Source: Lactobacillus intestinalis (GTDB taxonomy: Bacteria > Bacillota > Bacilli > Lactobacillales > Lactobacillaceae). From it: a DNA stretch of 64,000 nt. This document shows positions 9,736-26,467 of this stretch, piece by piece. The translations under genes were made by a program, and so were the position numbers. How positions within the stretch are numbered: position 1 is the stretch's first letter; each line of letters starts with the position of its first letter. The stretch covers positions 1,612,001 through 1,676,000 of the forward strand of contig NZ_CP072983.1 of NCBI RefSeq assembly GCF_024397795.1, in the 5' to 3' direction. The notes under the pieces are model-generated. The model ran no database searches. It had not been told where the DNA came from and worked only from the letters and a program-made list of their open reading frames with translations.

Positions 9736-9737
9736 GC

Positions 9738-10032: not shown

Positions 10033-10133
10033 TTTTTCTCCCACCCATCTTTCTTATTGACTAAAGTTGCCTTTTTAGCTCGATCGCCTCTAACTTCTTC
10101 ATCTGGATACGTCTTTTTCTTTTCTTTATCCAT
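10029..10133 (-). CDS. 34-residue charged ORF preceding the RelE/ParE-like gene
   Basis: The ORF starts at ATG 10133, nine bases after AGAAGGTGG, and ends in TGA that overlaps the next start by four bases. The product is highly charged (begins M-D-K-E-K-K-K-T-Y-P-D-E-E) with no hydrophobic core. The coupling suggests a genuine gene, perhaps a very small or degenerate antitoxin partner. It has no recognisable domain. Confidence 0.5.
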   Translation of the reverse strand: MDKEKKKTYPDEEVRGDRAKKATLVNKKDGWEKK

Positions 10134-10207
10134 AAAAAACACCACCTTCTACCTAAATTATATAGAAAGCGGTGTTTATTTTATGTTTTTACACTTAAAA
10201 ATATATT

Positions 10208-10924: not shown

Positions 10925-10985
10925 AATTTATCCTCCAAAAAATTATTCTCTCCCCTAATTCTAACCCAAAGTTCAATTTTTGCAC

Positions 10986-11107
10986 TAAAAAAGCCTAATT
11001 CCACCAACACGGAACTAGGCTCACACAGTGTGTACCGTTACCTCTGACCACATATAGAAGATAACATTTTCGCTACCGGAGAAAATGACTACTACCAGTA
11101 ACGGTAC
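10986..11107 (-). ncRNA. Structured leader or small RNA upstream of DUF975 gene, family not recognised
   Basis: The reverse-strand promoter is TTGTTT, 17 bases, then TGC-TAAAAT. It starts transcription at about 11107, exactly at a 10-bp helix: GTACCGTTAC (11107-11098) pairs with GTAACGGTAC (11041-11032). Inside is a second hairpin CATTTTC/GAAAATG. A terminator follows (GCCTAGTTCC/GGAATTAGGC plus TTTTTT, 11020-10987). The closed helix enclosing a multi-stem core and then a terminator is the shape of a riboswitch or an independent small RNA. I do not recognise the family. Confidence 0.65.
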
Positions 11108-11154
11108 AAGAAGATTTTAGCATTCAAATTATTAAAAAACAACTCTTACATACT

Positions 11155-11186
11155 AAAAGAGCAAGGGCTTCCCTTGCTCTTCTTTA
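11155..11186 (-). terminator. Terminator of the dlt-serine hydrolase operon
   Basis: AAGAGCAAGGG/CCCTTGCTCTT stem with flanking A/T tracts immediately after the hydrolase stop codon. Confidence 0.85.
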
Positions 11187-12128
11187 ATCCATTGTTAGTA
11201 ACATTGACATAATGCTCGTGACACGTTTTTTCATTTCTCTAAACTTACCACTAGTCGTATGATTATTTTGAATTACTATCATAGTTTGTGCATCCTTAGT
11301 CGAACGCATAAAGGTGTAATAACCTTCACCAGCACCATTTGCTACTTTAAATTGTGGTTTATTATAGAAACCACCATTGTAATAACTTGGAGCCTTTCCA
11401 GTAAACAAGATATCACGACTTTGTTTAGTCAATACATTACCTGTCAGGATATATTTAATTGTTTTTGCTAGATCATGGTTTGACATTACAATCGAACCTG
11501 CACCTAATTCATTATGGGCTGCCTTAACAGCTTTAGAATGCTTTACTCTTACAAATTCACCGTCGACATATTCATGCCCTGGCACCCAATTACTCTTTTT
11601 AAGTTTAGCCTTACTCGACCACAAGAATTCAGTATGCTTTAAATTCAGTGGCTGAATAAAGGTTTCTCTGAATAATTGCTCATAAGATTTATTCTCAAGC
11701 TGCGACATAATGCCACATAAGTAAACATAGTTCACAGAGGTATAATGCCATTTCCCAAGCATATTTTTATCAAAAACTGTGTATTTAACATCATGGTCAA
11801 TATTCTTTTTATCAGAAATAAACTTCTTTGTGCCTAACTTTTTACCAGGTTGAATATCAAGTCCAGATGTCATATTCAATAAATTGCGAATCTTGACATA
11901 CTCTGCACCAGGTACAGTAGGATAAAACTCACTTAAACTATCATCAAGTGAAAGCTTACCCTTTTCTACCTCACGCATTACCATCGTCGCAGTCATTGAT
12001 TTTTGCACAGAATTGATCAAATAACTAGTGTCAGTCTTATTGTCAGTAGCATAATTTAACCATGGAATCCCATCTTTAATTACTAAAGCAGATCCCTTAA
12101 TGCCCAGACGATGAATTGCCTGTCGCAC
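11184..12128 (-). CDS. Serine hydrolase of the beta-lactamase/penicillin-binding protein family
   Basis: This 314-residue protein has the active-site tetrad S-V-Q-K (~residue 40) and the downstream T-S-V-N-Y element of class C beta-lactamase-like hydrolases. It starts at a GTG that shares one base with the dltD TAG, so it is the last gene of the dlt operon. No signal peptide is visible with this start. Operon membership suggests a role in teichoic-acid D-alanyl ester or other cell-wall metabolism (inference). A peptidase, esterase or inactive homologue are all possible. Confidence 0.8.
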   Translation of the reverse strand: MRQAIHRLGIKGSALVIKDGIPWLNYATDNKTDTSYLINSVQKSMTATMVMREVEKGKLSLDDSLSEFYPTVPGAEYVKIRNLLNMTSGLDIQPGKKLGTKKFISDKKNIDHDVKYTVFDKNMLGKWHYTSVNYVYLCGIMSQLENKSYEQLFRETFIQPLNLKHTEFLWSSKAKLKKSNWVPGHEYVDGEFVRVKHSKAVKAAHNELGAGSIVMSNHDLAKTIKYILTGNVLTKQSRDILFTGKAPSYYNGGFYNKPQFKVANGAGEGYYTFMRSTKDAQTMIVIQNNHTTSGKFREMKKRVTSIMSMLLTMD

Positions 12129-13417
12129 TACTTGTCTTTTAAACGTTCTTTATTAGATAAATCTACTTTTTTAACGTTTGTTTTGTTTTGCCAATTCTTA
12201 GAGTAGTAGTAATTATTCAAATCATAATTATACTTACGGTTTGGCAATGCCATAAATGGTTTAACCGCTTGGTCTACTGCAATCCAACCATTCCAACCAA
12301 GGTGAATAGTATCTTGCATGAAGTACTTCTTAGCGCCATCCTTGGAAAGGTCAGCGATGTTTTCAAATCCTTGACTAGTCAATTGCTTTTCCATCTTAGC
12401 AACGGATTCTTGATACATTGATTGAGATAAACCAGTGTATTTAGCCCATTTTGCATTAATTGGTGGAATAATGAACAACACATTAGTGTGTTGCTTAGCA
12501 AATTGGTTAAGCATCAATTGGAAATCACCGTATTCAGGAGATTGAGTATAGTTAAAGTTTCGTTGACTACCCTTTAACTTCTTTAGCACCTTTTTAGAAA
12601 GACGCGTTCTGTAGAAAGTGTTGTCAATTCCCAAATTATTGGAATTAGTATGCATTTCTGCTTGTTCATCAGCGACTTTCTTCAAAGCTGCAACTGAATA
12701 TTTATCAGGTAAAAGCTTAGCTCTTCGACGAATCTTTTGTACACGGTCACGAAGTTGGAATGAACTAAAGAAAGTATCTTCATTAGCTAACATTTGACGA
12801 CGACCTTGTAACAAGAAACGATCCCAACTAGATAATTTTTTACCTGCCGCAATCTTCTTCAAGCCTGACTTGATAATTCCCGCCTTAATATCTGGCATAT
12901 CAAGCAAACGTTGAGCTGCATAACGGTCCGCCTTATTGTTTTTAGCTTTGAGTAAAAACATAGTTGTTTGAAGCGGAGAGTAGTACAAGCTAAAGGCTTG
13001 AGGGTTTTGACCTTGTTTTGTAAACCATTGTGGTGAAATAATGACGACAGCTTTTCTATTCTTAAGTTGTTCACTAGTACCTTGCATTCCCACAAATTGA
13101 GCCAAGCTTTGACTACCTGGCCCACCAAGTAAGAATGGACGATAATTACGCTTGTACTTTTCAGCGATTACGCTTGGGTGAAGCGGGTCCATTCTGGATA
13201 ATTCACTAGAACCATAAAATGGTACATAGCCATCTTCGTAGGCTTCTTGCTTCATTTTTACACCCTTGAAGACAGTAGTTGTCTGTGAATTAGCTGCTTG
13301 GAAAATAGAATCCTTTGAGAAAGTTCTTTCCCAGGGAATAAGGAATACTATGATCAGCAATATAAAAGCGCAAAGAACTGGGCCAAAAATTTGCCACAGC
13401 CGGCGTTTATTACTCAT
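12128..13417 (-). CDS. dltD: D-alanyl-lipoteichoic acid biosynthesis protein DltD
   Basis: This 429-residue protein has one N-terminal membrane helix (residues ~10-28). The extracellular domain has F-Y-G-S-S-E-L-S near residue 68, containing the Ser of the SGNH/GDSL-like esterase fold, and D-T-I-H-L-G-W-N-G-W with Asp/His near the C-terminus. DltD completes D-alanine transfer to lipoteichoic acid outside the membrane. The start overlaps dltC by 8 bp, and the next gene overlaps its stop. Confidence 0.95.
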   Translation of the reverse strand: MSNKRRLWQIFGPVLCAFILLIIVFLIPWERTFSKDSIFQAANSQTTTVFKGVKMKQEAYEDGYVPFYGSSELSRMDPLHPSVIAEKYKRNYRPFLLGGPGSQSLAQFVGMQGTSEQLKNRKAVVIISPQWFTKQGQNPQAFSLYYSPLQTTMFLLKAKNNKADRYAAQRLLDMPDIKAGIIKSGLKKIAAGKKLSSWDRFLLQGRRQMLANEDTFFSSFQLRDRVQKIRRRAKLLPDKYSVAALKKVADEQAEMHTNSNNLGIDNTFYRTRLSKKVLKKLKGSQRNFNYTQSPEYGDFQLMLNQFAKQHTNVLFIIPPINAKWAKYTGLSQSMYQESVAKMEKQLTSQGFENIADLSKDGAKKYFMQDTIHLGWNGWIAVDQAVKPFMALPNRKYNYDLNNYYYSKNWQNKTNVKKVDLSNKERLKDK

Positions 13418-13649
13418 TTTCTAAGCTTTCCACCTTTGCCACAATCTTAGCTGGGGTATCCCATTCAGCACGGTTAAATTCTGAAACTGGAACATCAATA
13501 TCGAACTTTTCTTGTAAACTTAAAAGCATTTGAACACTTGCCATTGAGTCAAGCAAACCATTGTCAAAAATGTTTTCGTCCATTTGATCTGACAAATCTT
13601 CACCAGTTAAATCGTTTAAAATGTCTAAAACTTCTGCTTTTGTATCCAT
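13410..13649 (-). CDS. dltC: D-alanine carrier protein DltC
   Basis: This 79-residue acyl-carrier-like protein has the phosphopantetheine attachment motif G-L-L-D-S-M-A (Ser ~36). It carries D-alanine as a thioester from DltA to the DltB membrane transferase. Length is normal. It sits between dltB (31 bp upstream) and dltD (8-bp overlap). Confidence 0.97.
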   Translation of the reverse strand: MDTKAEVLDILNDLTGEDLSDQMDENIFDNGLLDSMASVQMLLSLQEKFDIDVPVSEFNRAEWDTPAKIVAKVESLENE

Positions 13650-13680
13650 AATTAAAAACCTCTATTCACTAAACTATATT

Positions 13681-14916
13681 TTATTGCCATCCGAACCATA
13701 ATTGGCTAAGGAATCCGGAGAAAATCAAGAAACTGAAACATACTACATTGAAAGTTAAGAAAATAGCGAACCATTCCGTAAACTTGTTGTGTGGAATTTG
13801 TCCCTTGTGTTTCTTCTTGAATCTTAGCCATACATCATTGATACAGATCGCAGTGGCATGGAATATACCATACACAATATAATACCACGTAAGTCCGTGC
13901 CAGAATCCCATTATTAAGAATAATAGAAAATATGATACTTGTGACAATCTGATTCTATTCTTAAAGAGCTTTTTCTTCATTGCAAAGAAAGTAAAGCGCA
14001 TGTAAATGTAGTCACGGAACCAGAATGAAAGTGTCATATGCCAACGATTCCAGAAATCTTTGATGTTTTTGGAAATAAATGGCTTATTAAAGTTCATTGG
14101 GGTATGAATGCCCATGAAGTAGGAAATTGACACTGCAAATAATGAATAACCTGCAAAGTCAAAGAACAAATACATACTGTAGCAGTACATATAAGCTACA
14201 ACCCACCATGAAAGCTTCAAACCACCATTCGCATTTCCGGCAAGAAGTGCGGCTTGGCTGATCTTTGGAAGCCAATAAGTTCCAAAGAACCAACCAATTA
14301 TAAATTTGTACAAGAATCCTTGGAATAAATATCTAACCGCAAATTGCAAGTCAGTAATGTACTCATCCCTACTTGGCGCTTTATCAAAGTCCTTTTTAAA
14401 TCTACGATAACGATCAATAGGACCTGATGAAATTGTAGGGAAGAATAGCAAGAATCTTGCATAGGTGAGAGGATCAACCTTTTTAATTGCTCCGTCTCGC
14501 ATTTCCATGATTACTTGAACATTCTTAAACGTAATGTAAGAAATACCTAAGAATCCAATAACGAATGGAATACTCTTAACTGGAAATGCAGTCAATACTT
14601 TAACTATTGAGAGGGGTATAATTGCCAAAATTACGGCTAAATAAAATACCCAAGTTTTATTCTCTTTTTGACGATAATTCTGATAAAAGAAAGTAATGGC
14701 AAATTCATATACTAAATAAACCAATAAATTTATTCCCTGTTGCCAGTGAGAACCATCAAAAATTAAGAACAAGAATACCAATGAAAAGATTGCTTCATAA
14801 GTCTTAAAACGTTTGCCGTGATAAAGACCAATGATCATTGGAATTAAAGCAATCATCAAATAGATGAAGTATTGTGGATTTGCATAAGGTTGTAAGTTAA
14901 TGAAATTAAAATTCAC
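13681..14916 (-). CDS. dltB: D-alanyl transfer protein DltB (MBOAT family)
   Basis: This 411-residue, ~11-helix protein carries the MBOAT signatures F-W-N-R-W-H-M-T and, further on, F-L-I-M-G-F-W-H-G-L-T with the conserved His. It moves D-alanine from DltC across the membrane towards lipoteichoic acid. The GTG at 14916 shares a base with the dltA TAG and follows GGAGG by ~10 bases, indicating translational coupling. Confidence 0.96.
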   Translation of the reverse strand: MNFNFINLQPYANPQYFIYLMIALIPMIIGLYHGKRFKTYEAIFSLVFLFLIFDGSHWQQGINLLVYLVYEFAITFFYQNYRQKENKTWVFYLAVILAIIPLSIVKVLTAFPVKSIPFVIGFLGISYITFKNVQVIMEMRDGAIKKVDPLTYARFLLFFPTISSGPIDRYRRFKKDFDKAPSRDEYITDLQFAVRYLFQGFLYKFIIGWFFGTYWLPKISQAALLAGNANGGLKLSWWVVAYMYCYSMYLFFDFAGYSLFAVSISYFMGIHTPMNFNKPFISKNIKDFWNRWHMTLSFWFRDYIYMRFTFFAMKKKLFKNRIRLSQVSYFLLFLIMGFWHGLTWYYIVYGIFHATAICINDVWLRFKKKHKGQIPHNKFTEWFAIFLTFNVVCFSFLIFSGFLSQLWFGWQ

Positions 14917-16430
14917 TACTTATTAACCTCCTTAATGACAGCCTTAATATCCACTTTACCGTTTTGTGAAATTGGTAATGCATCCCGATATACATAACGC
15001 TGTGGAATCATATAAGGCATAACATTTTTAGCAAGATCTTCACGAATTAATTTAGTTAATTCCGCGTCTGAATACTTACGACGAACGCCGTCCTTTAATT
15101 CAATTTCAGCCACAATTTGCTTAACTGTATGGTCTTTATTGTATTTAGGTGCAGCGACACCGTAACGAACTAAATCGTTCTTAGTTAAATAGAAATTGAT
15201 TTCTTCAAGTTCGATTCGGTAACCGTTAAATTTAATTTGGAAGTCAATTCTTCCACGATAAAAGAGCATATCGCCATCAAAGAATCCAGCATCCCCAGTA
15301 CGATAACTTAAGTACTTATCGCCATCTTTCTTAAAGAAAGCAGCTTCGGTCTTTTCAGGATTATTCATATAACCCTTAGAAACACTAGGACCTTCAATGA
15401 TAATTTCACCTTCACCTGGTTTATCACCTTTGGAAGTATCAATAGTAATTCTAGTGTCTTCCTTAGCTCTACCAATTGGTAAACGATCGTACTTTTCAAG
15501 AACTTCATCAGTAATTTCAACTTGAGTTACGGCAACTGTAGTTTCAGTAGGGCCATAAGTGTTGAAAATATGACTGTTAGGGAACTTCTTCTTAAGCATT
15601 GCTGCTTCACTGTGTGGTAATTCTTCTCCACAGAACAAGAAGTGAGTTAAATCTGGGTGATGTTCACCGTCAAAAGTTCTATCTAAGAAACACATTTGTG
15701 CAAATGATGGCGTAGATACCCAAACATTGAATTGAAGCTTAGGTAAGGTAGCAAACAATTGCGCAAAGTTTTGAGTTACATCGTGTGGTAAGACTACTAG
15801 TTTTCCCCCGGCAACAAGTGCGGGGTAAAGGCTCATTACTGATAAATCAAATGAATATGGAGCTTGAACCAAAAAACTAGGATTTTCAGGTAAATCAAAA
15901 TCAGTCAATTCCCAGTTTACAAAGCTGAGTAAATTCTTATGACTAATTTGAACTCCCTTAGGCTTACCAGTAGTTCCTGAAGTAAAGATAATGTAGAAAT
16001 TATCATCATCCTCAACGAAGTTCTTTTCGTCAATATCGTAATTTCCATCTTCAACTTCATCAGGCTTAACAACTTGAACGCCATTCAAATCAATATCTGG
16101 CAATTCATCAATTGCTAAAACTACTTCTGACTTAGACACCTCTTGAATCATGGTCAAACGCTCAGCGTTAGAATAACTAGCGATTGGAATATAAGCATGA
16201 CCTGACTTAACACATCCTAAAAAGCTTGCAACCATTTCAAAGTTTTGGCCACCCCAAATCATGATTGGAGCTTTATCTGGAATATCCAAACTAGCAATCT
16301 TATGTGCCCAAGCATCTGAACGCTTTTTAAGATCACCGTATGTGTTAGTTTGACCAAGATAATCGTAAGCGATTCTATCTGGATCGCTTGTTGATATTTC
16401 GTCAATCTTCTTAATTACATCTTTAATCAT
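14916..16430 (-). CDS. dltA: D-alanine--D-alanyl carrier protein ligase DltA
   Basis: This 504-residue adenylating enzyme has the ATP-binding loop F-T-S-G-T-T-G-K-P-K-G (~residue 150), N-T-Y-G-P-T-E (~290), Y-R-T-G-D and the C-terminal G-K-V-D catalytic Lys. It activates D-alanine with ATP and loads it onto DltC. It is the first large gene of the dlt operon, preceded after 15 bp by dltX. Confidence 0.97.
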   Translation of the reverse strand: MIKDVIKKIDEISTSDPDRIAYDYLGQTNTYGDLKKRSDAWAHKIASLDIPDKAPIMIWGGQNFEMVASFLGCVKSGHAYIPIASYSNAERLTMIQEVSKSEVVLAIDELPDIDLNGVQVVKPDEVEDGNYDIDEKNFVEDDDNFYIIFTSGTTGKPKGVQISHKNLLSFVNWELTDFDLPENPSFLVQAPYSFDLSVMSLYPALVAGGKLVVLPHDVTQNFAQLFATLPKLQFNVWVSTPSFAQMCFLDRTFDGEHHPDLTHFLFCGEELPHSEAAMLKKKFPNSHIFNTYGPTETTVAVTQVEITDEVLEKYDRLPIGRAKEDTRITIDTSKGDKPGEGEIIIEGPSVSKGYMNNPEKTEAAFFKKDGDKYLSYRTGDAGFFDGDMLFYRGRIDFQIKFNGYRIELEEINFYLTKNDLVRYGVAAPKYNKDHTVKQIVAEIELKDGVRRKYSDAELTKLIREDLAKNVMPYMIPQRYVYRDALPISQNGKVDIKAVIKEVNK

Positions 16431-16445
16431 CCAATAGCACCTACC

Positions 16446-16598
16446 TTAGAATTCGTTATAAATAAAGTGAACTGAGTTAAGACCACTGTATTCATACAAA
16501 TAAATTAGAGCCATTAGGATAGCAAAGTAAATAATTGTCTTCAGAACAAACATTCCAACTTGCTTGCCCCGAGAGCCAACTTTTTGTTTTCTTTCCAT
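16446..16598 (-). CDS. dltX: DltX, small membrane protein of the dlt operon
   Basis: This 50-residue ORF starts at ATG 16598 behind AGGGAGA. It has a basic N-terminus (M-E-R-K-Q-K), one transmembrane helix (~residues 16-36) and a C-terminus ending H-F-I-Y-N-E-F. That end matches the conserved C-terminal motif of DltX, which interacts with DltB/DltD in D-alanylation. Position directly before dltA fits other Firmicutes. Confidence 0.9.
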   Translation of the reverse strand: MERKQKVGSRGKQVGMFVLKTIIYFAILMALIYLYEYSGLNSVHFIYNEF

Positions 16599-17066: not shown

Positions 17067-18203
17067 TTAATTACCAAATAATGCATTAATATTTAAGGAT
17101 AATATTCTATCCATAATCATTATGTGAGGCTTAGCATAAATTTTAGAACCAGATTCAAAAATACACAATAGCTGACCCTTATATGCGGTAATTTGTTCCA
17201 AATATGGCGGCATATCGATCACCAGCTCCGCATTCTTTTCATCAAGAGCATTTAATGCGGATGTTGGGAAAATATAAAGTTTGGAATCTCCACTTCCATA
17301 AGATTGACTAAGGAAGATTTTATTGTCATAAATAGCCAATCCTTGAATCTGTTTATCCATAGAGGTTTCACCACTAGGGTCGGACCATTCGACGGCCCCC
17401 GTCACGGCTCTAATTTCATTATTAGTAATTGAGCCCTTATTTTTTCCACTGCGAGCAATTGAGTAAGCTGCAACTCGACCGTGACCATACATATTAAAAA
17501 ATCCCACAAATAATTGATCATCATAATAAGTTACAGCAGATGCTCTTTCCATACTAGGAATTGAAATTTGATTATTGTATTCAATAGGAAGATGCTCATT
17601 TTCTTTATATTTTTCTAGAGTTTTCAACGTAAATGACATCAAAGCGGAACTATCACCAAGCGACCCGGTTACCCAAATATTCTTCGCAACTGGGTCATAG
17701 GCAATTCCCCCTAAGTGGGGTTTTCCTTTAACCTGAACTGTTTTGATATATTTACCCGTTTTTTTATCTAAAACATAAATAACTGAAGCATGCTTATGTG
17801 CACCATCATAAGCGGTAATCAAGATGTACTTTCCAGCAACCGTAATTCCTTGTGGCGTCATGCTATCGGCAGTATCCCACTTTTTAGTTTCAAAATTATA
17901 GCTTTTAGTTGAAACGAGGCCTGGAATAACTGCATCTTTTCCATCCCAAGTTCTTGGTGGAACATAATTAGCCGTCTTATTGATAAAAGAATAGCGCTGA
18001 CGCAGTTCTTTTTGATATGCAGGTAGTTTATGCCAAGCGGCATTGGTATTAGTACCATCTTTTGCTTTGACTACCGTGGGGCGTGTTTTTTGTAATTCCT
18101 GGTTTTGCCACCATTGATAACCATAATAACCTCCTACTCCAATCCCTGACACGACGAGCAATATTAAGAATAAGCGAAACAAAATTTTGCCTATTTTCTT
18201 CAA
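17067..18203 (-). CDS. Membrane-anchored extracellular protein, beta-propeller-like
   Basis: This 378-residue protein has a basic N-terminus, a membrane anchor (residues ~8-30), then an extracellular domain. Repeated hydrophobic strands such as Y-I-L-I-T-A-Y-D and N-I-W-V-T-G-S-L-G look like propeller blades. The start is a TTG at 18203 with GGAAG nine bases upstream; no ATG gives the full signal anchor. The downstream small membrane protein is 14 bp away. No catalytic motif is visible. Confidence 0.7.
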   Translation of the reverse strand: MKKIGKILFRLFLILLVVSGIGVGGYYGYQWWQNQELQKTRPTVVKAKDGTNTNAAWHKLPAYQKELRQRYSFINKTANYVPPRTWDGKDAVIPGLVSTKSYNFETKKWDTADSMTPQGITVAGKYILITAYDGAHKHASVIYVLDKKTGKYIKTVQVKGKPHLGGIAYDPVAKNIWVTGSLGDSSALMSFTLKTLEKYKENEHLPIEYNNQISIPSMERASAVTYYDDQLFVGFFNMYGHGRVAAYSIARSGKNKGSITNNEIRAVTGAVEWSDPSGETSMDKQIQGLAIYDNKIFLSQSYGSGDSKLYIFPTSALNALDEKNAELVIDMPPYLEQITAYKGQLLCIFESGSKIYAKPHIMIMDRILSLNINALFGN

Positions 18204-18300
18204 GACAACTTTCTTCCTCTCTAGTTATTCCAATACTTTCAATACATTATACGCAAAAATAATAGAGACGTGCGATGCTAGTTAAATTATTTTAAGTAAT

Positions 18301-18332
18301 GAAAAAGTCAAATCTCGTTAGATTCGACTTCC
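18301..18332 (-). terminator. Terminator of the lanthipeptide operon
   Basis: Reverse-strand stem AAGTCGAATCT/AGATTTGACTT followed by T's, 58 bases after the stop of the last small precursor-like ORF (18390). It marks the end of the lan operon. Confidence 0.8.
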
Positions 18333-18389
18333 ATACGTAATATTAAAAAGTATCTGGCTAGAGTGAATTGCCTTTGACTTATAACAATT

Positions 18390-18566
18390 TTACTTAAAAA
18401 GCTGATGCATTACATCTTCGAATTCAAACTTCGTAACATATTGATGTGTACAAAAAATGCTCATATTACTAGATGGAGTAATCTTATCTCTATACTTTTT
18501 TTCTTTAGCCAAATGGCGAGCTCTACCTTCAATTAATTTTTCAAAATCTAAAATAATATTATTCAT
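18390..18566 (-). CDS. Putative class III lanthipeptide precursor, copy C (downstream of lanKC)
   Basis: This 58-residue ORF starts at ATG 18566, 18 bp after the lanKC stop, with AAAAGGA upstream. The N-terminus M-N-N-I-I-L-D-F-E resembles the leader helix I-L-D-L-Q that class III synthetases recognise. The centre holds P-S-S-N-M-S-I-F-C-T-H-Q, that is Ser-xx-Ser-xx-Cys, the pattern converted to labionin or lanthionine. The same core occurs in the two ORFs upstream of the exporter. Unlike those, ~18 residues follow the core, perhaps removed or making this a different type of substrate. No other Cys is present. Confidence 0.7.
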   Translation of the reverse strand: MNNIILDFEKLIEGRARHLAKEKKYRDKITPSSNMSIFCTHQYVTKFEFEDVMHQLFK

Positions 18567-18584
18567 GATATAATTTTCCTTTTC

Positions 18585-21095
18585 TTATTCCAATGGTAAC
18601 CAATTAAATTCATCAGATTGATCCAATGATCTAAGCAAAGTTAACAATCCTGCACTTCCATACGAAAAATTAAGGCTTAACTTATAACCATATTTCCCAG
18701 GCAATAAGATTTCATTATCATTAGAAACTAAATATTGATTTAAAGCTTCTAATGAATAATTTAACATAGTAGAATCGCCATCCATAGCCAATGCATTAGC
18801 TAAAGGGATCACTCCACTATAACCAGACATTAATGTTTCCATATATGTGCAATAAGTGAAGCAGGTCTTTTTTAATTTTTCAAATGACGGCTGATACTTT
18901 TGCTTAAACAGGTTATCTTCTCTCATATACTTATGCATTAACAACGCTAAACCAAAAGTTCCATTTTCTAAATACGGTATTAATCTTTCAAACCCACGAG
19001 ATTTATCAGTAACTACTAAATTAATTTCTCCTTCAGAATGTTTCTGCAAAATATACGTAATTATTTCTTCTGCCTTTTTATTTTCCCCCAGACGCCAAAA
19101 TAAATAACTGACACCTCCCCAACCTGTTAATAGACCCACATCTTCATCTTCAAAATCACTAAAATTCACACTCTCCCATCTTGATAAGAGCAGATCTGTA
19201 ATTTTTTTAGTTATTTCGGGATATCTGTTTCTTAATATGAATGCTATACCGCTTAATCCTGTGGCCAAGGAATTATCTTCAATAGTTAAATCAACCTTTT
19301 TTGAAATAAGGTCTAACAATTGATCAGCCAAATCATTATAATTTAGCTTTTCTAAAACTTGGGCTAATCCACCGATTCCATTAAATAATCCCAATACGTT
19401 AGTTTTTCTGGAAATATCGATAATATTATCTTGATTTTCTTTAATCCACTTATTAAGACTTTGATCATCCTTATCGTCAATACCCCATAGAACACCTGCA
19501 GCTCCTGTAGACAAATTTAATAAATTTATTGGATCATCATTCTTATCAACTAATCCTGGAACTAGTGCTAATTTATTAAAGTTTAAATGATTTAAAATTC
19601 CTTTGGTCAATCCTGATTTAAAATAATTAACTGTAGGTCTATTTAAGTCTTTAGAAGGTATTGTCATAAAGTTTTTGAAAAAGATAGGCTCTTGCTCATC
19701 AACATTAATATCAAAGTTTCTTAAAAAACTAACCACATCTTTGCCAAAATAATCACTAATCCATTCACGGTGTTTAGCAATTATATTGGGAGCAATATCT
19801 GCTACTGGAATGATTGGCAAAAATAGGTAATATGCTATTCGCATTAAAGCAAAGTTATCTGCTTCACCAAATGTTTTTACTCCCGTAGATACAAAGCCTG
19901 CAGTTGTTAATCCAGGAATATATTTTTGATCAATCAAACCTGCATTTTCAAAATCAATTAACCTAACAACTCCCTCATCAGTAATTAAGATATTGCTCAA
20001 AGAAAGATCTCCAATAGCAATCCCGTGACTATGAATTTCCTCTATAATTCTTTTTAGTTGTTGCAAAATATCTTTGACTTTCACTTTATATTTATTTCTC
20101 TTTTTAGCATCCTCCAGAATAAATGGAAAGTCAGTCGGCAATAATTCTTCTAAGCTTCGTCCTTCAATATATTCTTCCACCAAAAAATGATGTCGCCATG
20201 AAGTAAAATCAGCATAACAATTGACTACAGCAGAAATATCTCTCAATTTTTTTAAAATTATTGCTTCATTCTTTACCCTTGTAAAGCCATCTTTTTGATT
20301 AGCATCTAGACCTGCGTGCTGTCGACCTTCTTTTAAAACAACTTTTTTATCATCTTTCAAAGCTAAGTAAACCCCACCGGCATTACTAAAATGCAAAGCA
20401 GACCTCACCTTATATTTCGATAAGGGTAAAAAAGTACGAGAATCTGGAAAAACATTCTTTTTAAAAAAAGGAGGATCGGAAACAAAATTAGGTTTTTGAT
20501 AATATGGTAATCTCTTATCTTCATGCTTCTTCCCATTTGAATCATAAATAGCAGGTATCTTTTTCCCATCCTTAGATACAATATAGATTGGTTTAAAACC
20601 CCCATATCGAAAATAAACATTGCTTTCTTGCCAATTTTGATCACTTAAGATATAAGGTCCTAAATCGAAATGCATAGTTAACTTTTTTAGCATTTGCAAT
20701 AAATATTCAAATTCATCATTATTTCTTGGATAAATAGTGATAAATTTTCCGCTTTCACTCCGATCAGCATATTTGGAATTTGAATACACCAGCTGTTCTA
20801 GACTAGATACAAATTTGAAAGAAACTCTTTCTCTAATTAACCATGGAGCCACAATATCCAGCATTTCCTGAGCCTGATGTATTGTTGCACTAAGATGTAT
20901 TTTCCATCCTTGTGTTGGTAAATTATGAGATTGATAAATCATATAGTGCCAATACTCAGTGTTTTCATTTACCCATTGAGAATTAACTTTTTCTTTTACA
21001 ACAAAATATGATTTTTTTATTTCAAGCTTATTAGTATAAAATAAGCTATTTTTATTTCTAGCTGCATTCAAATACATTACTTGTTCTTCTAACAT
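18585..21095 (-). CDS. lanKC: Class III lanthionine synthetase LanKC
   Basis: This 836-residue enzyme has three parts. Residues ~1-210 form the lyase-like region. Residues ~230-400 form a Ser/Thr kinase-like domain, with the ATP-binding Lys in V-V-L-K-E, catalytic G-D-L-S-L-S-N and D-F-E. Residues ~520-836 form a LanC-like cyclase of repeated G-x-x-G-x-A segments. The cyclase lacks the Cys-Cys-His zinc ligands, which separates class III from class IV. The enzyme phosphorylates and eliminates Ser/Thr, then adds Cys thiols to make lanthionine or labionin. It starts 7 bp after the exporter gene with GGAAAAGAG, and a precursor-like ORF follows its stop. Confidence 0.9.
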   Translation of the reverse strand: MLEEQVMYLNAARNKNSLFYTNKLEIKKSYFVVKEKVNSQWVNENTEYWHYMIYQSHNLPTQGWKIHLSATIHQAQEMLDIVAPWLIRERVSFKFVSSLEQLVYSNSKYADRSESGKFITIYPRNNDEFEYLLQMLKKLTMHFDLGPYILSDQNWQESNVYFRYGGFKPIYIVSKDGKKIPAIYDSNGKKHEDKRLPYYQKPNFVSDPPFFKKNVFPDSRTFLPLSKYKVRSALHFSNAGGVYLALKDDKKVVLKEGRQHAGLDANQKDGFTRVKNEAIILKKLRDISAVVNCYADFTSWRHHFLVEEYIEGRSLEELLPTDFPFILEDAKKRNKYKVKVKDILQQLKRIIEEIHSHGIAIGDLSLSNILITDEGVVRLIDFENAGLIDQKYIPGLTTAGFVSTGVKTFGEADNFALMRIAYYLFLPIIPVADIAPNIIAKHREWISDYFGKDVVSFLRNFDINVDEQEPIFFKNFMTIPSKDLNRPTVNYFKSGLTKGILNHLNFNKLALVPGLVDKNDDPINLLNLSTGAAGVLWGIDDKDDQSLNKWIKENQDNIIDISRKTNVLGLFNGIGGLAQVLEKLNYNDLADQLLDLISKKVDLTIEDNSLATGLSGIAFILRNRYPEITKKITDLLLSRWESVNFSDFEDEDVGLLTGWGGVSYLFWRLGENKKAEEIITYILQKHSEGEINLVVTDKSRGFERLIPYLENGTFGLALLMHKYMREDNLFKQKYQPSFEKLKKTCFTYCTYMETLMSGYSGVIPLANALAMDGDSTMLNYSLEALNQYLVSNDNEILLPGKYGYKLSLNFSYGSAGLLTLLRSLDQSDEFNWLPLE

Positions 21096-21102
21096 TTTCT
21101 AC

Positions 21103-22818
21103 TCATCTCTTTTCCTTAAGCTGCTGCTCATGTACATAACGCCGATAGTCTGATACTTTTTCAAGTAACTCACCATGCGTACCACTGGCAACAATAGTCT
21201 TATTTTTAAGAAAATAAATCCTGTCACTATTTGCTATAGTTGACAGTCTATGAGCTATCGTAATAATGCCACAATGTTTAGTTTGAGTTAATTTATCTAA
21301 TGCCGTCATTATTACTTTTTCTGTATCTGAATCTAAATTAGAAGTTGCTTCATCTAAAATCAAAAATTTAAAATCTCGTAAATAGGCACGAGCAATTTGA
21401 AGACGTTGGCGTTGACCTCCTGAAAGTTGTGCGCCTTCTTCACCAATCGAATTATCCAAACAATTAGGTAATTGAGAAACATAATCTTTTAATTGCACTA
21501 TTGCCAAAGCGTCCCATAATTCTTGATCCGTAACTTTTCTATTTAACCCCAAAGTTAAATTAGTACGAATATTACCAGATAAAATGGAATTTTCTTGCAA
21601 GACGACACTAAAAAAGCCTCTCCACTGTTCTAAGCTAAAGTCTAAATAGGACTTATCATTTAAATTGATTTTTCCTTTATTAATTGGATACAAGCGAGTA
21701 ATTATGTTAACCAAAGTACTCTTTCCAGCTCCTGTCGCCCCAACTAAGGCTATTTTTTCATTGCTATGAGCCTCTAAGTTAATATTTTCCAATATTGGAA
21801 TTGAATTATATGCAAAATCAACATTCTGAAGTTGCAACCAATCAAAATCGTAAGATGCCTTAATTGTTTTAGGAGATGAACTGAGCTCTTCTTCAGGCGT
21901 TTTACTTATAATTTCTCTTATCTTTTGAGTAGCCCCCATCATTTGCTTTTTATCAGAATAAAACATGGCAACTTCATTAATTGGACCAATAACTTGAAAG
22001 AAATACATCATAAAGGCGCCCAATGTACCTGTTGAAAGATCTCCTGTTTTAACTCTAATAGCACCATAAAGCACAATTAATAATATTAAGCAAAAAGAAA
22101 GCATTGACTGGAGTGGGCCGATAACAGCGGATATTCGATCAGATTTAAGTGACAAATTAAATAAATTATTTATTTCAGCTACAATCTTATTAACTAAATC
22201 GTTTTCTGCCTTATTTAATTTAATTGTCTTTATATTCTTAATTCCTTCACTGGTTATTCCTGTCAAAGCACCTAAGCTATTTTGTGTTTGATTTGCTATT
22301 TTTTCATTAATTTTTCCCAACGGGATAGTCACTGCTGCATCAATTGGAAACACCAATAACATTAAGAGGGTTAATTTCCAATCCAAAAAAAGAGCTATAA
22401 TTACTGTTCCAAGAATAGTAATTATTCCTGTAACTGTAGTAGGGATTGTTGCGGTTAAGAAATTTCTTAGTATATTTACATCATTAATAATTCTACTAGT
22501 TAAATTCCCACTGATTTGTTGATCAAAATATTGCTGTGGTAGTTGAAATACCTTTTTCTGTAACAGCAACCGCATCCGACGAACCTGTCTGTCACCTTCA
22601 CTACTAATTAAGTAATCACTTGTAGTACTTATCACTAGATTAAAAATTATAATAGCTAGACCTAGAATTAAAACTTTTTCTGAAATCCCAGACCAAATAA
22701 ATCTCTTCAGATTAATAAATTGACGAACAAGTAAAGGAATATACAGGTTTAATAAACTAGCAATTATACTTAATAGAATACCGAGAATTAAACGGGGTGT
22801 GAGTTTCAAAAGTTTCAT
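21103..22818 (-). CDS. lanT: Lanthipeptide ABC exporter (fused membrane/ATPase)
   Basis: This 571-residue half-transporter has six N-terminal helices and a C-terminal ABC domain with Walker A G-A-T-G-A-G-K-S-T, signature L-S-G-G-Q-R-Q-R and Walker B F-L-I-L-D-E-A-T. There is no C39 leader-peptidase domain, so leader removal needs another protease. I place the start at ATG 22818, one base after the stop of precursor-like ORF A. A longer reading frame to 22893 overlaps that ORF and lacks membrane-protein character. Weak local ribosome site implies translational coupling to ORF A. Confidence 0.85.
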   Translation of the reverse strand: MKLLKLTPRLILGILLSIIASLLNLYIPLLVRQFINLKRFIWSGISEKVLILGLAIIIFNLVISTTSDYLISSEGDRQVRRMRLLLQKKVFQLPQQYFDQQISGNLTSRIINDVNILRNFLTATIPTTVTGIITILGTVIIALFLDWKLTLLMLLVFPIDAAVTIPLGKINEKIANQTQNSLGALTGITSEGIKNIKTIKLNKAENDLVNKIVAEINNLFNLSLKSDRISAVIGPLQSMLSFCLILLIVLYGAIRVKTGDLSTGTLGAFMMYFFQVIGPINEVAMFYSDKKQMMGATQKIREIISKTPEEELSSSPKTIKASYDFDWLQLQNVDFAYNSIPILENINLEAHSNEKIALVGATGAGKSTLVNIITRLYPINKGKINLNDKSYLDFSLEQWRGFFSVVLQENSILSGNIRTNLTLGLNRKVTDQELWDALAIVQLKDYVSQLPNCLDNSIGEEGAQLSGGQRQRLQIARAYLRDFKFLILDEATSNLDSDTEKVIMTALDKLTQTKHCGIITIAHRLSTIANSDRIYFLKNKTIVASGTHGELLEKVSDYRRYVHEQQLKEKR

Positions 22819-22819
22819 T

Positions 22820-22963
22820 TTACAAGTGATTGTGACTCTTTGGACACATAATACTAATATGACTGTTGGGTTTTTCCCAATTCCACTTTTCATTAGTTGG
22901 CTTATTCAACTTTTTAAAAGCATCAACTAATTCTTTTTCCATCATTAAAATATAATTTTCCAT
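22820..22963 (-). CDS. Putative class III lanthipeptide precursor, copy A (upstream of exporter gene)
   Basis: This 47-residue ORF starts at ATG 22963 behind GGAAGTGTGG. The N-terminus M-E-N-Y-I-L-M-M-E resembles that of copy C (M-N-N-I-I-L-D-F-E). The C-terminus contains P-N-S-H-I-S-I-M-C-P-K-S, the Ser-xx-Ser-xx-Cys class III core, and ends seven residues after the Cys. It has one Cys only. It lies between the attenuator-like terminator after copy B and the exporter gene, which starts one base after its stop. Confidence 0.75.
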   Translation of the reverse strand: MENYILMMEKELVDAFKKLNKPTNEKWNWEKPNSHISIMCPKSHNHL

Positions 22964-22985
22964 ATTTTCCACACTTCCTATCTAG

Positions 22986-23016
22986 TAAAAAAGGATTAGA
23001 TCCTTTAATCTAACCC
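22986..23016 (-). terminator. Terminator/attenuator between precursor copies B and A
   Basis: Reverse-strand stem GGGTTAGAT/ATCTAATCC followed by TTTTTT, two bases after the stop of copy B. Partial termination here would give more precursor than enzyme transcript, as in other lanthipeptide operons. Confidence 0.8.
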
Positions 23017-23017
23017 T

Positions 23018-23200
23018 TTATCCAAACCACCAGAACGAATTATGGTCACATAAGACACTAATATTGCTATGATAACTACCATAATGCTTCTTACCGCCTT
23101 TTTTACGACGTCCTTTAGCATAAAGACTGGTAGTAACACCTTGTAATCCTAATGCAGGATTACTGCTTTCTGGTTAAAAACTTTGTGTTTCTGTATCCAT
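23018..23200 (-). pseudogene. Putative class III lanthipeptide precursor, copy B, interrupted by a stop at codon 9
   Basis: The frame starts at ATG 23200 with GGGAGG nine bases upstream. It reads M-D-T-E-T-Q-S-F, then TAA (23176-23174), then continues open for 51 codons. That part has a leader-like region (N-P-A-L-G-L-Q-G), a basic linker (G-R-R-K-K-G-G-K-K) and the core H-S-N-I-S-V-L-C-D-H, ending F-W-W-F-G. No ATG, GTG or TTG lies in frame after the stop. A CAA to TAA change would explain it. The terminator and operon-first position suggest it was the main precursor. A sequencing error or readthrough are alternatives. Confidence 0.75.
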
Positions 23201-23233
23201 GCTTGAATGCCTCCCAAATTTCTTTGTATTAAT

Positions 23234-23304
23234 GTTATACAATCTTCAAAGCAATATTTTTAAAATAAATTTTGAACGTTAAAAATATTCAATTAAGCGT
23301 CAAT
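23234..23304. promoter_or_regulatory. Divergent lan promoter region with LytTR-type direct repeats
   Basis: Forward-strand AACGTTAAA (23275-23283) and AGCGTCAAT (23296-23304) are 9-bp repeats with a 12-bp spacer, 21 bp apart. This is the spacing of AgrA/PlnC-type LytTR regulator sites and resembles the plantaricin box TACGTTAAT. The reverse strand also reads as repeats with the same period. A forward TATGAT (23331-23336) and a reverse TATAAC (23239-23234) are candidate -10 boxes for the kinase operon and the lan operon. Confidence 0.6.
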
Positions 23305-23367
23305 TATATAGAATTTCCTTTAAACTGGTGTATGATTTGTACATATATTTTATGGGAGCAAAAACTA

Positions 23368-24678
23368 ATGAAAGATATTCTAAATAATCTGGCCTTTAAT
23401 CCATACATTTTTTCTATATGCTTAACCTTCGCAATCACTCGTCCAGCCAAAATAGATTTTCTTTTATATCCAATTCTTTTTATTCCTGTATTATTTGGTT
23501 ACCAATATATGTTGATTACCATTCTCGTGGTTCAACTCATTTGTCAAATTTTTTCACGATATAACGTAGAATTGTTGAAAAAATTATTTTTCTACTATTT
23601 TGTCCTAATTCTTTATCCCATTTTAGGAGAATTACTTGGATGGGTTATTCAAATATTTTCACATTTTGTTTTACATAAATTCCTGGATTATTTAACTCTC
23701 AATATAATTTGTTTTATACCTGAAATATTAATTTGCATTCTTATTTATTTCACAAAAAAACGGCACAGCTTAAAAATCTCAAAAATCAGTTCTGATATTA
23801 GCTATAATCCTAATTTCTTAAATCTATTAGTATGGATTGTTTGGATTTTTAATATTGTCACTTACGCCATTTGGACCGTAATTGAACTAATTAACATTAA
23901 ACCAATCGTAGAATTAGTATTGATGATAGTAGTATTGCTTATTATCGTAATTCTATTACTTAATCTATATAAAACTATTCAAGAAAGCCAAAAAATTCTA
24001 AAAACTCGTATTCAAAATGCAGAAATAAAACAAATTCAGGAATATTCTTCTCGCTTAGAAGAAGTAAATCTTACCTTACGAAAAGCTCGTCATGATTATA
24101 AAAATAGCCTTCTTTCATTAAATGGTTACTTATCAACCAATGACATAGAGGGTGCAAAAAAGTATCTCATTGAGCTAGTTAATGATAATAATCGTTTACA
24201 AAATGCTAATAAATCAATGACTTTAGAATTAGCCAATCTAAAGATAAAGGAATTAAAGTATTTAATAATCGATAAGCTACAACAAGCACAGGACAAAGGC
24301 ATTCAGACTAAAGTGGAAATTAATAAACAAATCGATGCCTTTCCTACAAGTATCGTCAATATAATTAGATGCGTTGGAATCTTTCTCGATAATGCAATCG
24401 AAGCTTGTCAAAATCAAAAAAATGCAAAAATATCTGTCTTAATTACAAAATACTCTGGAAATAATTATTCTTTAACTGTTCAAAATACTATTACTCACTT
24501 TGTTGATGTTACTAAATCGTTAGAACCAATGGTAACTAGTAAACAGAACCATGAAGGATTAGGACTAAATAATGTAAATGAAATAGTAAATAATGATCCA
24601 TATTTATCATTGGAGATTGAACAAAATGCAGAAGAAATTTCATTTGAATTAATAATTCAGGAGGAAAAAAATAATTAA
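23368..24678 (+). CDS. AgrC/ComD-like sensor histidine kinase (HPK10-type)
   Basis: This 436-residue protein has about six N-terminal membrane helices (to ~residue 200), a linker coiled coil, and R-H-D-Y-K-N with the phospho-acceptor His (~250). Its GHKL ATPase domain contains D-N-A-I-E-A and G-L-G-L-N-N-V. Such kinases sense secreted peptides. I use ATG 23368, preceded by GGGAG at nine bases; a frame open to 23272 would start in the repeat region. The response-regulator gene begins directly after the stop. Divergent to the lan operon, hence probably its regulator. Confidence 0.88.
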   Translation: MKDILNNLAFNPYIFSICLTFAITRPAKIDFLLYPILFIPVLFGYQYMLITILVVQLICQIFSRYNVELLKKLFFYYFVLILYPILGELLGWVIQIFSHFVLHKFLDYLTLNIICFIPEILICILIYFTKKRHSLKISKISSDISYNPNFLNLLVWIVWIFNIVTYAIWTVIELINIKPIVELVLMIVVLLIIVILLLNLYKTIQESQKILKTRIQNAEIKQIQEYSSRLEEVNLTLRKARHDYKNSLLSLNGYLSTNDIEGAKKYLIELVNDNNRLQNANKSMTLELANLKIKELKYLIIDKLQQAQDKGIQTKVEINKQIDAFPTSIVNIIRCVGIFLDNAIEACQNQKNAKISVLITKYSGNNYSLTVQNTITHFVDVTKSLEPMVTSKQNHEGLGLNNVNEIVNNDPYLSLEIEQNAEEISFELIIQEEKNN

Positions 24679-25452
24679 ATGTTAGCGATCATAATCTTAG
24701 AAGACAATATTACTGAGAGAAAGCTTATTCAACAAATGATTGAAAACAGAATTCAAATAAATTCAACCCCATACCCTTACGATGCACGAGTTATCCTCAG
24801 TACTGGAAACCCACAAACCGTTTTAAACTATATCGAAGAACATAAAGATTTTAATTTCCTAGCCTTTTTAGATATCGATCTCAAAACAGACTTAGATGGA
24901 ATTGAAGTTGCTAGTCATATTAGAAACATTGGTATTTTTAGCCAAATAGTTTTTGTTACCGCAGATGCGACAGCATTACGTCTCACAATTGAACGCCACG
25001 TTGAACCTCTAGATTACATCACTAAAGATGCAACTCCTGCACAAATTAAGCAAAAAATATACAATACCCTTGATACAGCATATCAACGGTATCGTATATC
25101 AATGAAGTCCACGATGCGTACAAAGTATTTTACGTATAACAAGATAAAAAACTTTATAGAAAAAATTCCTCTAAATGAAGTATTTTATATTAGTATTCAA
25201 CAGAAAAAATATAAAACCTTGCGGGTATACTCAAAGAATAAGATCTTTGATTGTATTGGAACACTTAAAGATTATGAAAAAAGATATCCTAGTTTAGTTT
25301 TGGCAGATCGACAAAGTTTAATAAATTTAGATGCTGTTCAAAATTACGATCAAAAGAATGGAATCGTTTATTTTGATAAAACAGTTTCACATACTGTAGC
25401 TGTACGACGTAGACGCGCAATTATGCTCAAATTAAAAGAAAATCCACAGTAA
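24679..25452 (+). CDS. AgrA-like LytTR response regulator
   Basis: This 257-residue protein has a receiver domain (acidic E-D-N near residue 9, phospho-Asp in F-L-D-I-D-L ~69, Lys in Y-I-T-K-D-A) and a C-terminal LytTR DNA-binding domain ending in basic V-A-V-R-R-R-R-A. Its ATG follows the kinase TAA immediately, with AGGAGG inside the kinase gene. The 21-bp-period repeats upstream of the kinase gene are the expected kind of binding site. Confidence 0.9.
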   Translation: MLAIIILEDNITERKLIQQMIENRIQINSTPYPYDARVILSTGNPQTVLNYIEEHKDFNFLAFLDIDLKTDLDGIEVASHIRNIGIFSQIVFVTADATALRLTIERHVEPLDYITKDATPAQIKQKIYNTLDTAYQRYRISMKSTMRTKYFTYNKIKNFIEKIPLNEVFYISIQQKKYKTLRVYSKNKIFDCIGTLKDYEKRYPSLVLADRQSLINLDAVQNYDQKNGIVYFDKTVSHTVAVRRRRAIMLKLKENPQ

Positions 25453-25558
25453 CTCATCTAATAAATATTCAAGATTGATTTTGTACATTATTATTAACTT
25501 ATTTTTCAATTAAAAGTACTTCGTCACACATTTTTCACAAATAAGGGGTATGATAGAA

Positions 25559-25712
25559 GTGTAGTAAACAAAGAGATTTTACTACACTCAACTTTTTTGT
25601 TTTTCATTCATACTCCTCCAAGTAAATAATGAAAATAAAAAGAATTGACTTTCACTAGTCAATTTCATATCTATCCCTTTCGGCTCACGTGCGTTGCGTG
25701 AGCTTTTCTTTT
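25559..25712 (+). ncRNA. Candidate small RNA 1 with anti-Shine-Dalgarno/anti-start segment
   Basis: A -10 TATGAT (25549-25554) is followed by a perfect 10-bp hairpin GTGTAGTAAA/TTTACTACAC (25559-25587). A single-stranded segment TCATTCATACTCCTCC (25604-25619), complementary to GGAGGAGT-ATG, comes next. The element ends in a terminator GCTCACG/CGTGAGC plus T's (25683-25711). The layout resembles streptococcal csRNAs, which base-pair with ribosome sites and start codons. A paralogous element follows at 25804. No ORF of coding quality is present. Confidence 0.6.
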
Positions 25713-25803
25713 TCGCTTAAAAAAATCGCATAACTTTCTTTACCATTTCATAAGAATTTAAACATTTTTAGTTCACAATTTCTCTGTAGTATATAAATTG
25801 TAG

Positions 25804-25916
25804 CAAGGAGGTAGAACTTGTTACATACTCCCACTTTTTTATTTCATTCATTCTTACTCCTCCAAAGTAGATGAAACTAATAAGACCTGCATAACTTGCA
25901 GGTCTTTTCCTTTTTT
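25804..25916 (+). ncRNA. Candidate small RNA 2, paralogue of small RNA 1
   Basis: A TATAAA at 25792-25797 precedes the element. The central segment CATTCATTCTTACTCCTCC aligns with that of small RNA 1 (shared ACTTTTTT before and ACTCCTCC-AA(A)GTA after). It ends in a terminator AAGACCTGC/GCAGGTCTT with a T-rich tail (25882-25916). The 5' hairpin is different and weaker. A 27-residue reverse-strand ORF here is not conserved in copy 1, so I favour RNA function. Confidence 0.55.
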
Positions 25917-25963
25917 CTAGGTATTTTAACCTGTATACTGAAATGAGAAAGCGAGGCATTTTT

Positions 25964-26467
25964 ATGTTTTCACCGTCAATCCAACATTTAATTGAAGAAA
26001 AATCTGGCTCTTTTTTGATTCCAGCCAGTCGAATTGCGTTTGTTCAAGCGGACAATCCCCTTTATCATGCCTTTTTGATTCTGACAAAAGTCAAATATTC
26101 GAAAATCCCCGTCCTTGATAAAGATCGAAAAGTAGTTGGCTTATTGAGCTTAGCAATGATTACCGATGAAATGTTGAAAGTAGACAAAATTTCAATAGAT
26201 CCATTAAATGAATTGAAGGTTCAAGATGTGATGCAAACAGATTTTGACAAGATTAATTTTGTTCAAACTACTCTTGAAACCCAACTTCATTTATTAGTCG
26301 ACAACGCCTTTCTTCCTGTAGTAGATGATCGTGGAATATTTCAAGGATTATTAACCCGGCGTGAATGGATTAAGGCTTTCAACTATGTAGTTCATACTTA
26401 TGATAATCATTATCAGGTTCAGGAAATCAAAGACACAAACTCTCAAAGCTTAATTAATACCAAGTAG
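25964..26467 (+). CDS. CBS-domain protein, CbpB/YkuL-like
   Basis: This 167-residue soluble protein has two CBS motifs. The first spans K-Y-S-K-I-P-V-L-D-K-D-R-K-V-V-G-L-L, the second F-L-P-V-V-D-D-R-G-I-F-Q-G-L-L-T. The arrangement matches CbpB/YkuL, a cyclic-di-AMP-binding protein of Firmicutes that influences Rel in other species. The ATG at 25964 has GCGAGG. A terminator (AGCAGT/ACTGCT, T's) follows at about 26466-26495. The ligand here is inferred from family only. Confidence 0.8.
   Translation: MFSPSIQHLIEEKSGSFLIPASRIAFVQADNPLYHAFLILTKVKYSKIPVLDKDRKVVGLLSLAMITDEMLKVDKISIDPLNELKVQDVMQTDFDKINFVQTTLETQLHLLVDNAFLPVVDDRGIFQGLLTRREWIKAFNYVVHTYDNHYQVQEIKDTNSQSLINTK

Follow-up and report, generated by a model that had tools for sequence, protein, structure and literature searches.

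Class III lanthipeptides, exemplified by the ThurKC system (PMC10604976) and the labionin peptides, derive from loci that combine a lyase-kinase-cyclase synthetase (LanKC) with small leader-core precursors; they are many in genomes, and few have a known function. Here, we analyse such a locus in Lactobacillus intestinalis, found at positions 18301..25452 of a 64,000-nucleotide stretch of the genome (NZ_CP072983.1:1,612,001-1,676,000, assembly GCF_024397795.1), hereafter the window. Judging from its gene content and layout, this locus is probably a self-contained, self-regulated, multi-precursor class III lanthipeptide cassette, which should yield two or three tiny ring-shaped peptides. As in the described systems, cores of the form SxxSx(2-5)C are encoded adjacent to LanKC, and no protease was seen in the cluster; unclustered proteases are themselves the subject of a study (PMC8960859). 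Unlike those systems, the window locus encodes precursors with a single Cys in an S-phi-phi-C core, two of which (A2 and A3) appear to have leaders without the LxLQ motif. Its precursors also fall below the cut-offs of family models, and an AgrC/AgrA-like two-component pair is part of the cassette.

Several of these features have precedents in the literature. Because 57% of class III precursors are the sole one in their cluster (PMC7268733), multi-precursor class III clusters are not new. Class III loci have been described from bee Lactobacillus (PMC10673953), and another study lists a LanKC for each of two L. delbrueckii genomes (PMC12754561). The honeybee Lactobacillus Firm5 loci (PMC10673953), together with a group of loci identified here (L033-L038), share LanKC and an ABC gene with the window, as well as one to three [ST]-phi-phi-C precursors in the case of L033-L038, but differ from it in that no two-component pair was found within 5 kb. 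A set of 179 single-cysteine lanthionine/labionin precursors, enriched in histidine (PMC11251773), fits this [ST]-phi-phi-C family. In Clostridium acetobutylicum, a lanthipeptide-synthetase-like protein was described as an Agr-controlled effector that is dispensable for the Agr signal (PMC10301443), an arrangement different from that of the window cassette. None of the titles and abstract openings covered couples a class III synthetase from Lactobacillus to an AgrC-type pair; they leave the subscription literature mostly uncovered and thus provide no proof of novelty.

On the regulatory side, the Agr system (AgrBDCA) resembles the window locus in its AgrC-like GHKL kinase, its AgrA-like LytTR regulator and the small ring peptides predicted to be made alongside. 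The window locus departs from Agr in that no AgrB scores above cut-off, LanKC would be the enzyme closing the peptides, and the kinase and regulator remain below the AgrC and AgrA cut-offs. Autoinduced bacteriocin loci of lactobacilli, such as those of the plantaricin type, carry a LytTR regulator, direct repeats with a period of ~21 bp before the precursor genes, and an exporter. All of these elements recur here, the repeat in three species; in contrast to the plantaricin-type loci, however, neither a C39-peptidase exporter nor an unmodified double-glycine pheromone gene was seen in the window locus, and its precursors are likely LanKC substrates.

Synthetase, exporter and precursor genes

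The lanthipeptide genes are transcribed from the minus strand in the order A1 (23200-23018), A2 (22963-22820), ABC exporter (22818-21103), LanKC (21095-18585) and A3 (18566-18390), and diverge from the plus-strand genes for the kinase (23368-24678) and the regulator (24679-25452). An earlier sequence-only reading of this span, in which the kinase and regulator went undiscussed, had recognized a LanKC-type synthetase and an ABC exporter, and profile searches bear out both assignments. The 836-residue LanKC scores 653.7 bits against NF038151 (curated NCBIfam cut-off, 575) and carries the Pfam domain set of a class III synthetase, namely RamC_N (lyase), Pkinase (Ser/Thr kinase) and LANC_like. Solved LanKC chains, for example 8sap (E 5.8e-114) and 9wj0, align across almost all of its length. 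LanC enzymes hold zinc through Cys, Cys and His ligands in the cyclase domain. In the alignment with solved LanKC, the sequences SGYSG and SYGSAG stand at the positions of the LanC ligand motifs, a placement made through that alignment and the LanC motifs as generally known rather than through direct alignment with a zinc cyclase. The exporter is a permease-ATPase fusion (ABC_membrane and ABC_tran) with no peptidase domain among its Pfam matches; its start was set by comparison with two related loci, L031 and L032, the list of open reading frames (ORFs) offering a longer alternative start at 22893.

The same reading had proposed three small ORFs with similar cores as precursors. Two of these are open: A2 encodes 47 residues with the core NSHISIMC-PKSH (an upstream GTG start at 22972 is also listed), and A3 encodes 58 residues with the core SSNMSIFC-TH followed by a conserved tail. 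The claim fails for A1, whose frame reads MDTETQSF, meets an in-frame TAA at codon 9 and then runs on to the core HSNISVLC-DH, with no ATG, GTG or TTG restart after the stop in that frame. An open A1 in this L. intestinalis genome is therefore rejected. Nevertheless, the representative of one protein cluster, P0125 (5 members, the cluster being counted on 419 contigs), is identical to the A1 frame save at the stop position; thus, the gene is real, and the window carries a disrupted copy of it unless the stop is a sequencing error. In a test for the LxLQ motif, the leader segments were ALGLQ in A1, YILMMEKEL in A2 and IILDFEKL in A3, and the likeness to I-L-D-L-Q that had been suggested for the leaders appears only loose for A2 and A3. 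Within 17801-26000, 2 of the 25 ORFs of 30-75 residues carry the strict motif S-x-[IMLV]-S-[IV]-[MLF]-C, which none of 300 shuffles of this region reproduces; as this motif was derived from the same window ORFs, its independent support comes from conservation in relatives. Between A1 and A2, a terminator-like hairpin followed by a U run is located on the minus strand at 22990..23019 (-14.2 kcal/mol, z -2.64, equalled in 4 of 200 shuffles). It is also present in L031 (z -4.18, 0 of 200 shuffles as good) and is absent from the output of a consensus terminator scan.

Conservation of the cassette and of its ring motif

The small ORFs are conserved beside LanKC in other lactobacilli. In L031, from an uncultured Lactobacillus metagenome-assembled genome (MAG), an intact A1, A2 and A3 all accompany a LanKC that is 71% identical to that of the window, and in L032, from L. 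equicursoris, A2 and A3 accompany a LanKC that is 63-64% identical. A1 is absent from the latter, so that the three-ORF layout expected in related genomes was recovered in full in L031 only. Among species representatives, a LanKC of more than 60% identity occurs in 3 of 75 genus genomes, the genome of origin included, and an A3 match in 3 of 397 Lactobacillaceae genomes. A mixed precursor profile yielded 39 protein clusters (5 A1, 13 A2 and 21 A3). From the conservation lines drawn for these precursors, P0146, P0148, P0149, P0155 and P0159 were omitted as fragments, frameshifts or run-on frames (P0159, on one contig, is a frameshifted A1 cluster). SxxSxxC is kept in 34 of the 39, comprising 4 of 5 A1, 13 of 13 A2 and 17 of 21 A3 clusters; it is lost from one frameshifted cluster each of A1 and A3, from one truncated A3 and from two A3 clusters that carry Tyr at the Cys position. 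Hence, neither loss of the small ORFs from the vicinity of lanKC nor free variation of the core, either of which would have undermined the sequence-only reading, was encountered, and its call of a multi-precursor class III locus in a Lactobacillus stands. The organisms named for the A2 and A3 clusters include L. delbrueckii (subsp. bulgaricus and lactis), L. equicursoris, L. porci and L. nasalidis, and a LanKC cluster 71% identical to the window LanKC is named from an L. crispatus MAG.

The surroundings of the three loci differ. In the stretches compared, no DNA match between the flanks of the window, L031 and L032 loci was obtained at E 1e-5 (13 self rows, 0 cross rows), and the flank proteins gave a single match, of ~33%, between two ORFs. 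In L031, the next genes are found 52 bp past the regulator and 106 bp past A3. Given these differing flanks, the conserved unit consists of the precursors, ABC exporter, LanKC, kinase and regulator; beyond these, the three loci showed no ORF of at least 30 residues shared at a corresponding position within the unit. Weaker matches were also obtained. A2-like hits in genomes G048, G051 and G055 had E values of 0.009-0.02; the one examined (L069) was rejected, as it runs antisense to a larger ORF among cell-wall genes. Two A1-like hits, in G006 and G064 (E 0.03-0.05), each contain an internal stop.

A second locus of this kind, L045, is present in the same genome (G000:C1:1392000-1410000) and encodes LanKC, an ABC protein, a GHKL kinase and a LytTR regulator. 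It has four precursor-like single-Cys ORFs, at 7511-7660, 11908-12096, 12078-12203 and 12219-12377, and its cores are SLICFH, TIICWN, SVFCFN and SLFCWNH; a profile of L045-type precursors recovered 12 clusters. L042-L044 likewise contain LanKC with a kinase-regulator pair, and cores SLICFH, SFICIG, SLICIG and SFICFH (the GHKL-LytTR pair was called by Pfam in L042, L044 and L045, and by similarity to those in L043). In L033-L038, the LanKC is 37-40% identical to that of the window, and the precursors have cores such as SLICGH, TYICYH and SLLCGN, among others. L039 and L040 likewise lack a kinase-regulator pair, and their precursor candidates look unlike those of the other loci. When slots were defined by position, [ST]-phi-phi-C appeared in 33 of 61 forward ORFs of at least 25 residues (shuffle mean 0.56, maximum 4, 500 shuffles) and in 0 of 51 reverse-strand ORFs, in a census that includes several near-copy loci, takes its motif from the same loci and leaves out L039, L040 and L101-L120. 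Nearly all precursors of the family would form one four-residue ring, [S/T]-phi-phi-C.

Ser-xx-Ser-x(2-5)-Cys had been put forward as the labionin/lanthionine pattern of class III, and it applies to the window clade without being general. S..S..C is present in all 8 distinct window-clade precursors (the A1 remnant counted) versus 2 of 28 others, or 5 of 28 when Thr is allowed, the related loci keeping [ST]-phi-phi-C instead. These 28 were hand-picked and partly pre-filtered for [ST]-phi-phi-C, so their score of 27/28 for it has no force as a test. They do not include the L039 ORF, whose core is unclear, L046, which repeats the L041 peptide, or ORFs, short or overlapping, that were considered to be chance. 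The labionin triad thus looks like a window-clade extension of the shared [S/T]-phi-phi-C unit, and labionin is possible in the window products. Further afield, among 20 loci with more distant LanKC-like genes, only L103 (G077, another genus; 6866-13722) held a convincing precursor of the [ST]-phi-phi-C type, and none had a kinase-regulator pair. In L103, LanKC is split in two ORFs, the precursor core SNISFMC-TG resembles those of the window, and a LytTR-type regulator lies nearby, with no kinase found. A degenerate locus was observed in G061 (L046, 9080-10121), where 168 residues of LanKC run into regulator-like sequence with a precursor still in front.

The two-component pair and the upstream repeat

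The divergent plus-strand genes add to the picture given by the earlier reading, as do a LytTR-type repeat, the second LanKC locus and the reduction of the shared core to just [S/T]-phi-phi-C. They encode an AgrC-like membrane sensor histidine kinase of 436 residues (HATPase_c_5 of the GHKL type, and SPOB_a) and an AgrA-like response regulator of 257 residues (Response_reg and LytTR). Both are below equivalog level, the kinase scoring 114.6 bits against NF046015 (AgrC; cut-off 500) and the regulator 83.2 bits against NF046049 (AgrA; cut-off 400). G068 and G012 have kinase homologues of 76% and 67% identity, in each case within the LanKC locus, and the 3 of 75 genomes with a close kinase are the ones that have a close LanKC. 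The sensor half diverges more than the kinase half (71 vs 80% and 57 vs 74% identity). No AgrB above cut-off was detected in the genome, the best partial match reaching 21.3 bits against a cut-off of 23 in a frame with two stops; AgrD was not searched for. Two more kinase matches, at 42%, were obtained in G034 and G028; in the former, the only LanKC match is on a contig other than that of the kinase, and in the latter, none was obtained at E 1e-20. In L067 (8506-9744), a relative of the kinase-regulator pair (kinase at 42%) has no LanKC seen adjoining it and is followed by two small hydrophobic proteins.

A LytTR-type direct repeat, ACGYTYA-N14-ACGYTYA, with a 21-bp period, is located on the minus strand at 23273..23300 and begins 100 bp before the A1 start codon. 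Its offset from the first precursor start is nearly the same in L031 (99 bp) and L032 (96 bp), where, A1 being absent, it precedes A2. The pattern arose in 0 of 5000 dinucleotide shuffles of each of the three regions. Scans of L042-L045 slots (8/9 identity, 20-22-bp spacing) gave no such repeat but one low-complexity pair in L042, and none was found before the L045 precursors; the repeat is thus established for the window clade only. As L. equicursoris retains the kinase, regulator and repeat without A1, a role for A1 as obligatory inducer is disfavoured.

A tree of 33 LanKC sequences groups those of the window, L031 and L032 in one clade and those of L041-L045 in another. The latter is sister to L033-L037, which lack the kinase-regulator pair; L041 is labelled as being without a two-component system, although its contig ends just past LanKC. 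Between the two clades, the kinases are 27-34% alike across stretches of 184-366 residues, compared with 35-46% over the full length within L041-L045, and the gene order also differs between the groups. Because the kinases are distant and the gene order differs, two separate recruitments of the pair by LanKC loci are favoured, whereas a single gain followed by losses may also account for its distribution.

Possible roles of the products

By analogy with characterized members of the families, LanKC would bind A2 and A3 (and A1 where intact) by their helical leaders, phosphorylate and then eliminate the core Ser, and close a small Ser-Cys ring within S-phi-phi-C. Closure would proceed without zinc, as family comparison suggests (PMC10604976), and the extra upstream Ser would permit labionin formation in the window clade. 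The ABC protein would then export the peptides, and a protease encoded outside the cassette would trim them. The AgrC-like kinase would then detect one or more of the exported peptides, or a related cue, outside the cell, and the layout suggests that the LytTR regulator would bind the 21-bp repeats before the precursor operon and raise production. Self-induction and LytTR control of the precursor operon are therefore features we infer for this cassette, whose products may serve as a narrow-range bacteriocin, a signal, or both.

The accounts of these products differ in what the kinase is thought to sense. The peptides may be bacteriocins, with the two-component system responding to something else (envelope stress, or another peptide or species) and no feedback from the product. 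Multi-precursor class III clusters exist (PMC7268733), narrow-range class III bacteriocins are cited (PMC10673953), and the 42% kinase relatives occur in a genome without LanKC (G028) or with LanKC on another contig (G034); however, no dedicated immunity gene was recognized, and the kinase and regulator accompany the cassette in loci whose flanks differ. We regard this account as a possible one that falls short of being probable. Alternatively, at least one ring peptide may be the ligand of the adjacent AgrC-type kinase, in which case LanKC would replace the AgrB/AgrD thiolactone route and signalling would be the main role. This would explain an Agr-like kinase and regulator in a genome with no AgrB above cut-off, in a unit where no other conserved ORF of at least 30 residues was seen. 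The joining of LanKC to a pair in two clades with such dissimilar kinases and the greater divergence of the sensor half also point in this direction. It is harder to reconcile with two to four precursor candidates per sensor, with the dispensability of A1 and with relatives that keep the same core without the pair; moreover, the ring cores are nearly invariant, and hence no signal-receptor co-variation is seen. An autoinducer role is therefore a tentative proposal, and that the kinase ligand is a LanKC product seems rather doubtful. More broadly, LanKC-built quorum signals might exist, consisting of several tiny peptides with one four-residue thioether ring and sometimes labionin, read by AgrC-type kinases in place of the thiolactone, having arisen at least twice in Lactobacillus and forming two circuits in this genome; taken as a whole, this scenario is speculative and unlikely.

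That the locus is decaying, with little present function in this strain, is suggested by the nonsense codon in A1, the frameshifted A1 of P0159 and the Cys-less A3 copies. It is nonetheless improbable, as the frames of LanKC, the exporter, the kinase, the regulator, A2 and A3 are all open in the window and dN/dS is low between species. Indeed, for the window versus L031, dN/dS is 0.27 for A2, about 0.13 for A3 and 0.14 for LanKC, which suggests selection on the precursors of the same order as on LanKC, the precursor values coming from 47-58 codons; synonymous sites are near saturation for the post-stop A1 piece, and versus L032 they are saturated for A2, A3 and LanKC. The notion that the small ORFs arose by chance draws on the lack of any Pfam or NCBIfam model above cut-off on window A2 and A3 or on any of the A1-A3 copies from L031 and L032. 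Below cut-off, lanthi_III_b, a class III precursor model, matches L031 A1, window A2 and L032 A2; RamS matches L031 A1; and the seemingly unrelated FAM194 and DUF3847 match A2 and L031 A3, respectively. Against chance stand the homologues and conserved position of these ORFs, and the low dN/dS and the 0 of 300 shuffles for the strict motif lead us to reject it as exceedingly improbable.

The self-regulated cassette thus remains our favoured reading, with several observations weighing against it. The brevity of the precursor alignments and the failure to recognize an immunity gene in the window cassette have been mentioned. As L033-L038 have the same core without a pair, the sensor is not required for the chemistry. 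The repeat was first spotted by eye and tested afterwards, and although no second exact match occurs in the 2.04-Mb genome, a control with the reversed pattern yields 2 matches, so that the genome-wide count is uninformative by itself. The cassette also decays easily: A1 is broken or absent, two A3 relatives (P0157 and P0158) have Tyr for the core Cys and are otherwise kept, and, in P0015 from L. delbrueckii subsp. bulgaricus, an ABC ATP-binding part is joined to a LanKC without RamC_N, as if two genes had been fused by deletion.

A lanthipeptide locus that comes with a sensor of its own and a conserved site at its promoter offers a practical handle, in that the regulator and this site could serve to turn on expression of the locus, and whether a product is a signal could be read from the kinase. 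Likewise, precursors missed by the family models scanned could be searched for by means of the shared [S/T]-phi-phi-C core. Homologues are named from the yogurt bacterium L. delbrueckii subsp. bulgaricus, and a close LanKC from an L. crispatus MAG. As other lactobacilli have related cassettes with this ring motif, the possibility of a new kind of bacterial peptide signal appears worth testing.

A shared plasmid was considered and rejected, the six matching records covering pieces of 2-8% of the query at 60-80% identity. Downstream of the lanthipeptide locus, at 13681-16598, lie DltB- and DltA-like ORFs with a small DltX-like ORF, which we take to be a dlt operon; as L031 and L032 have other flanks, it is placed outside the cassette.

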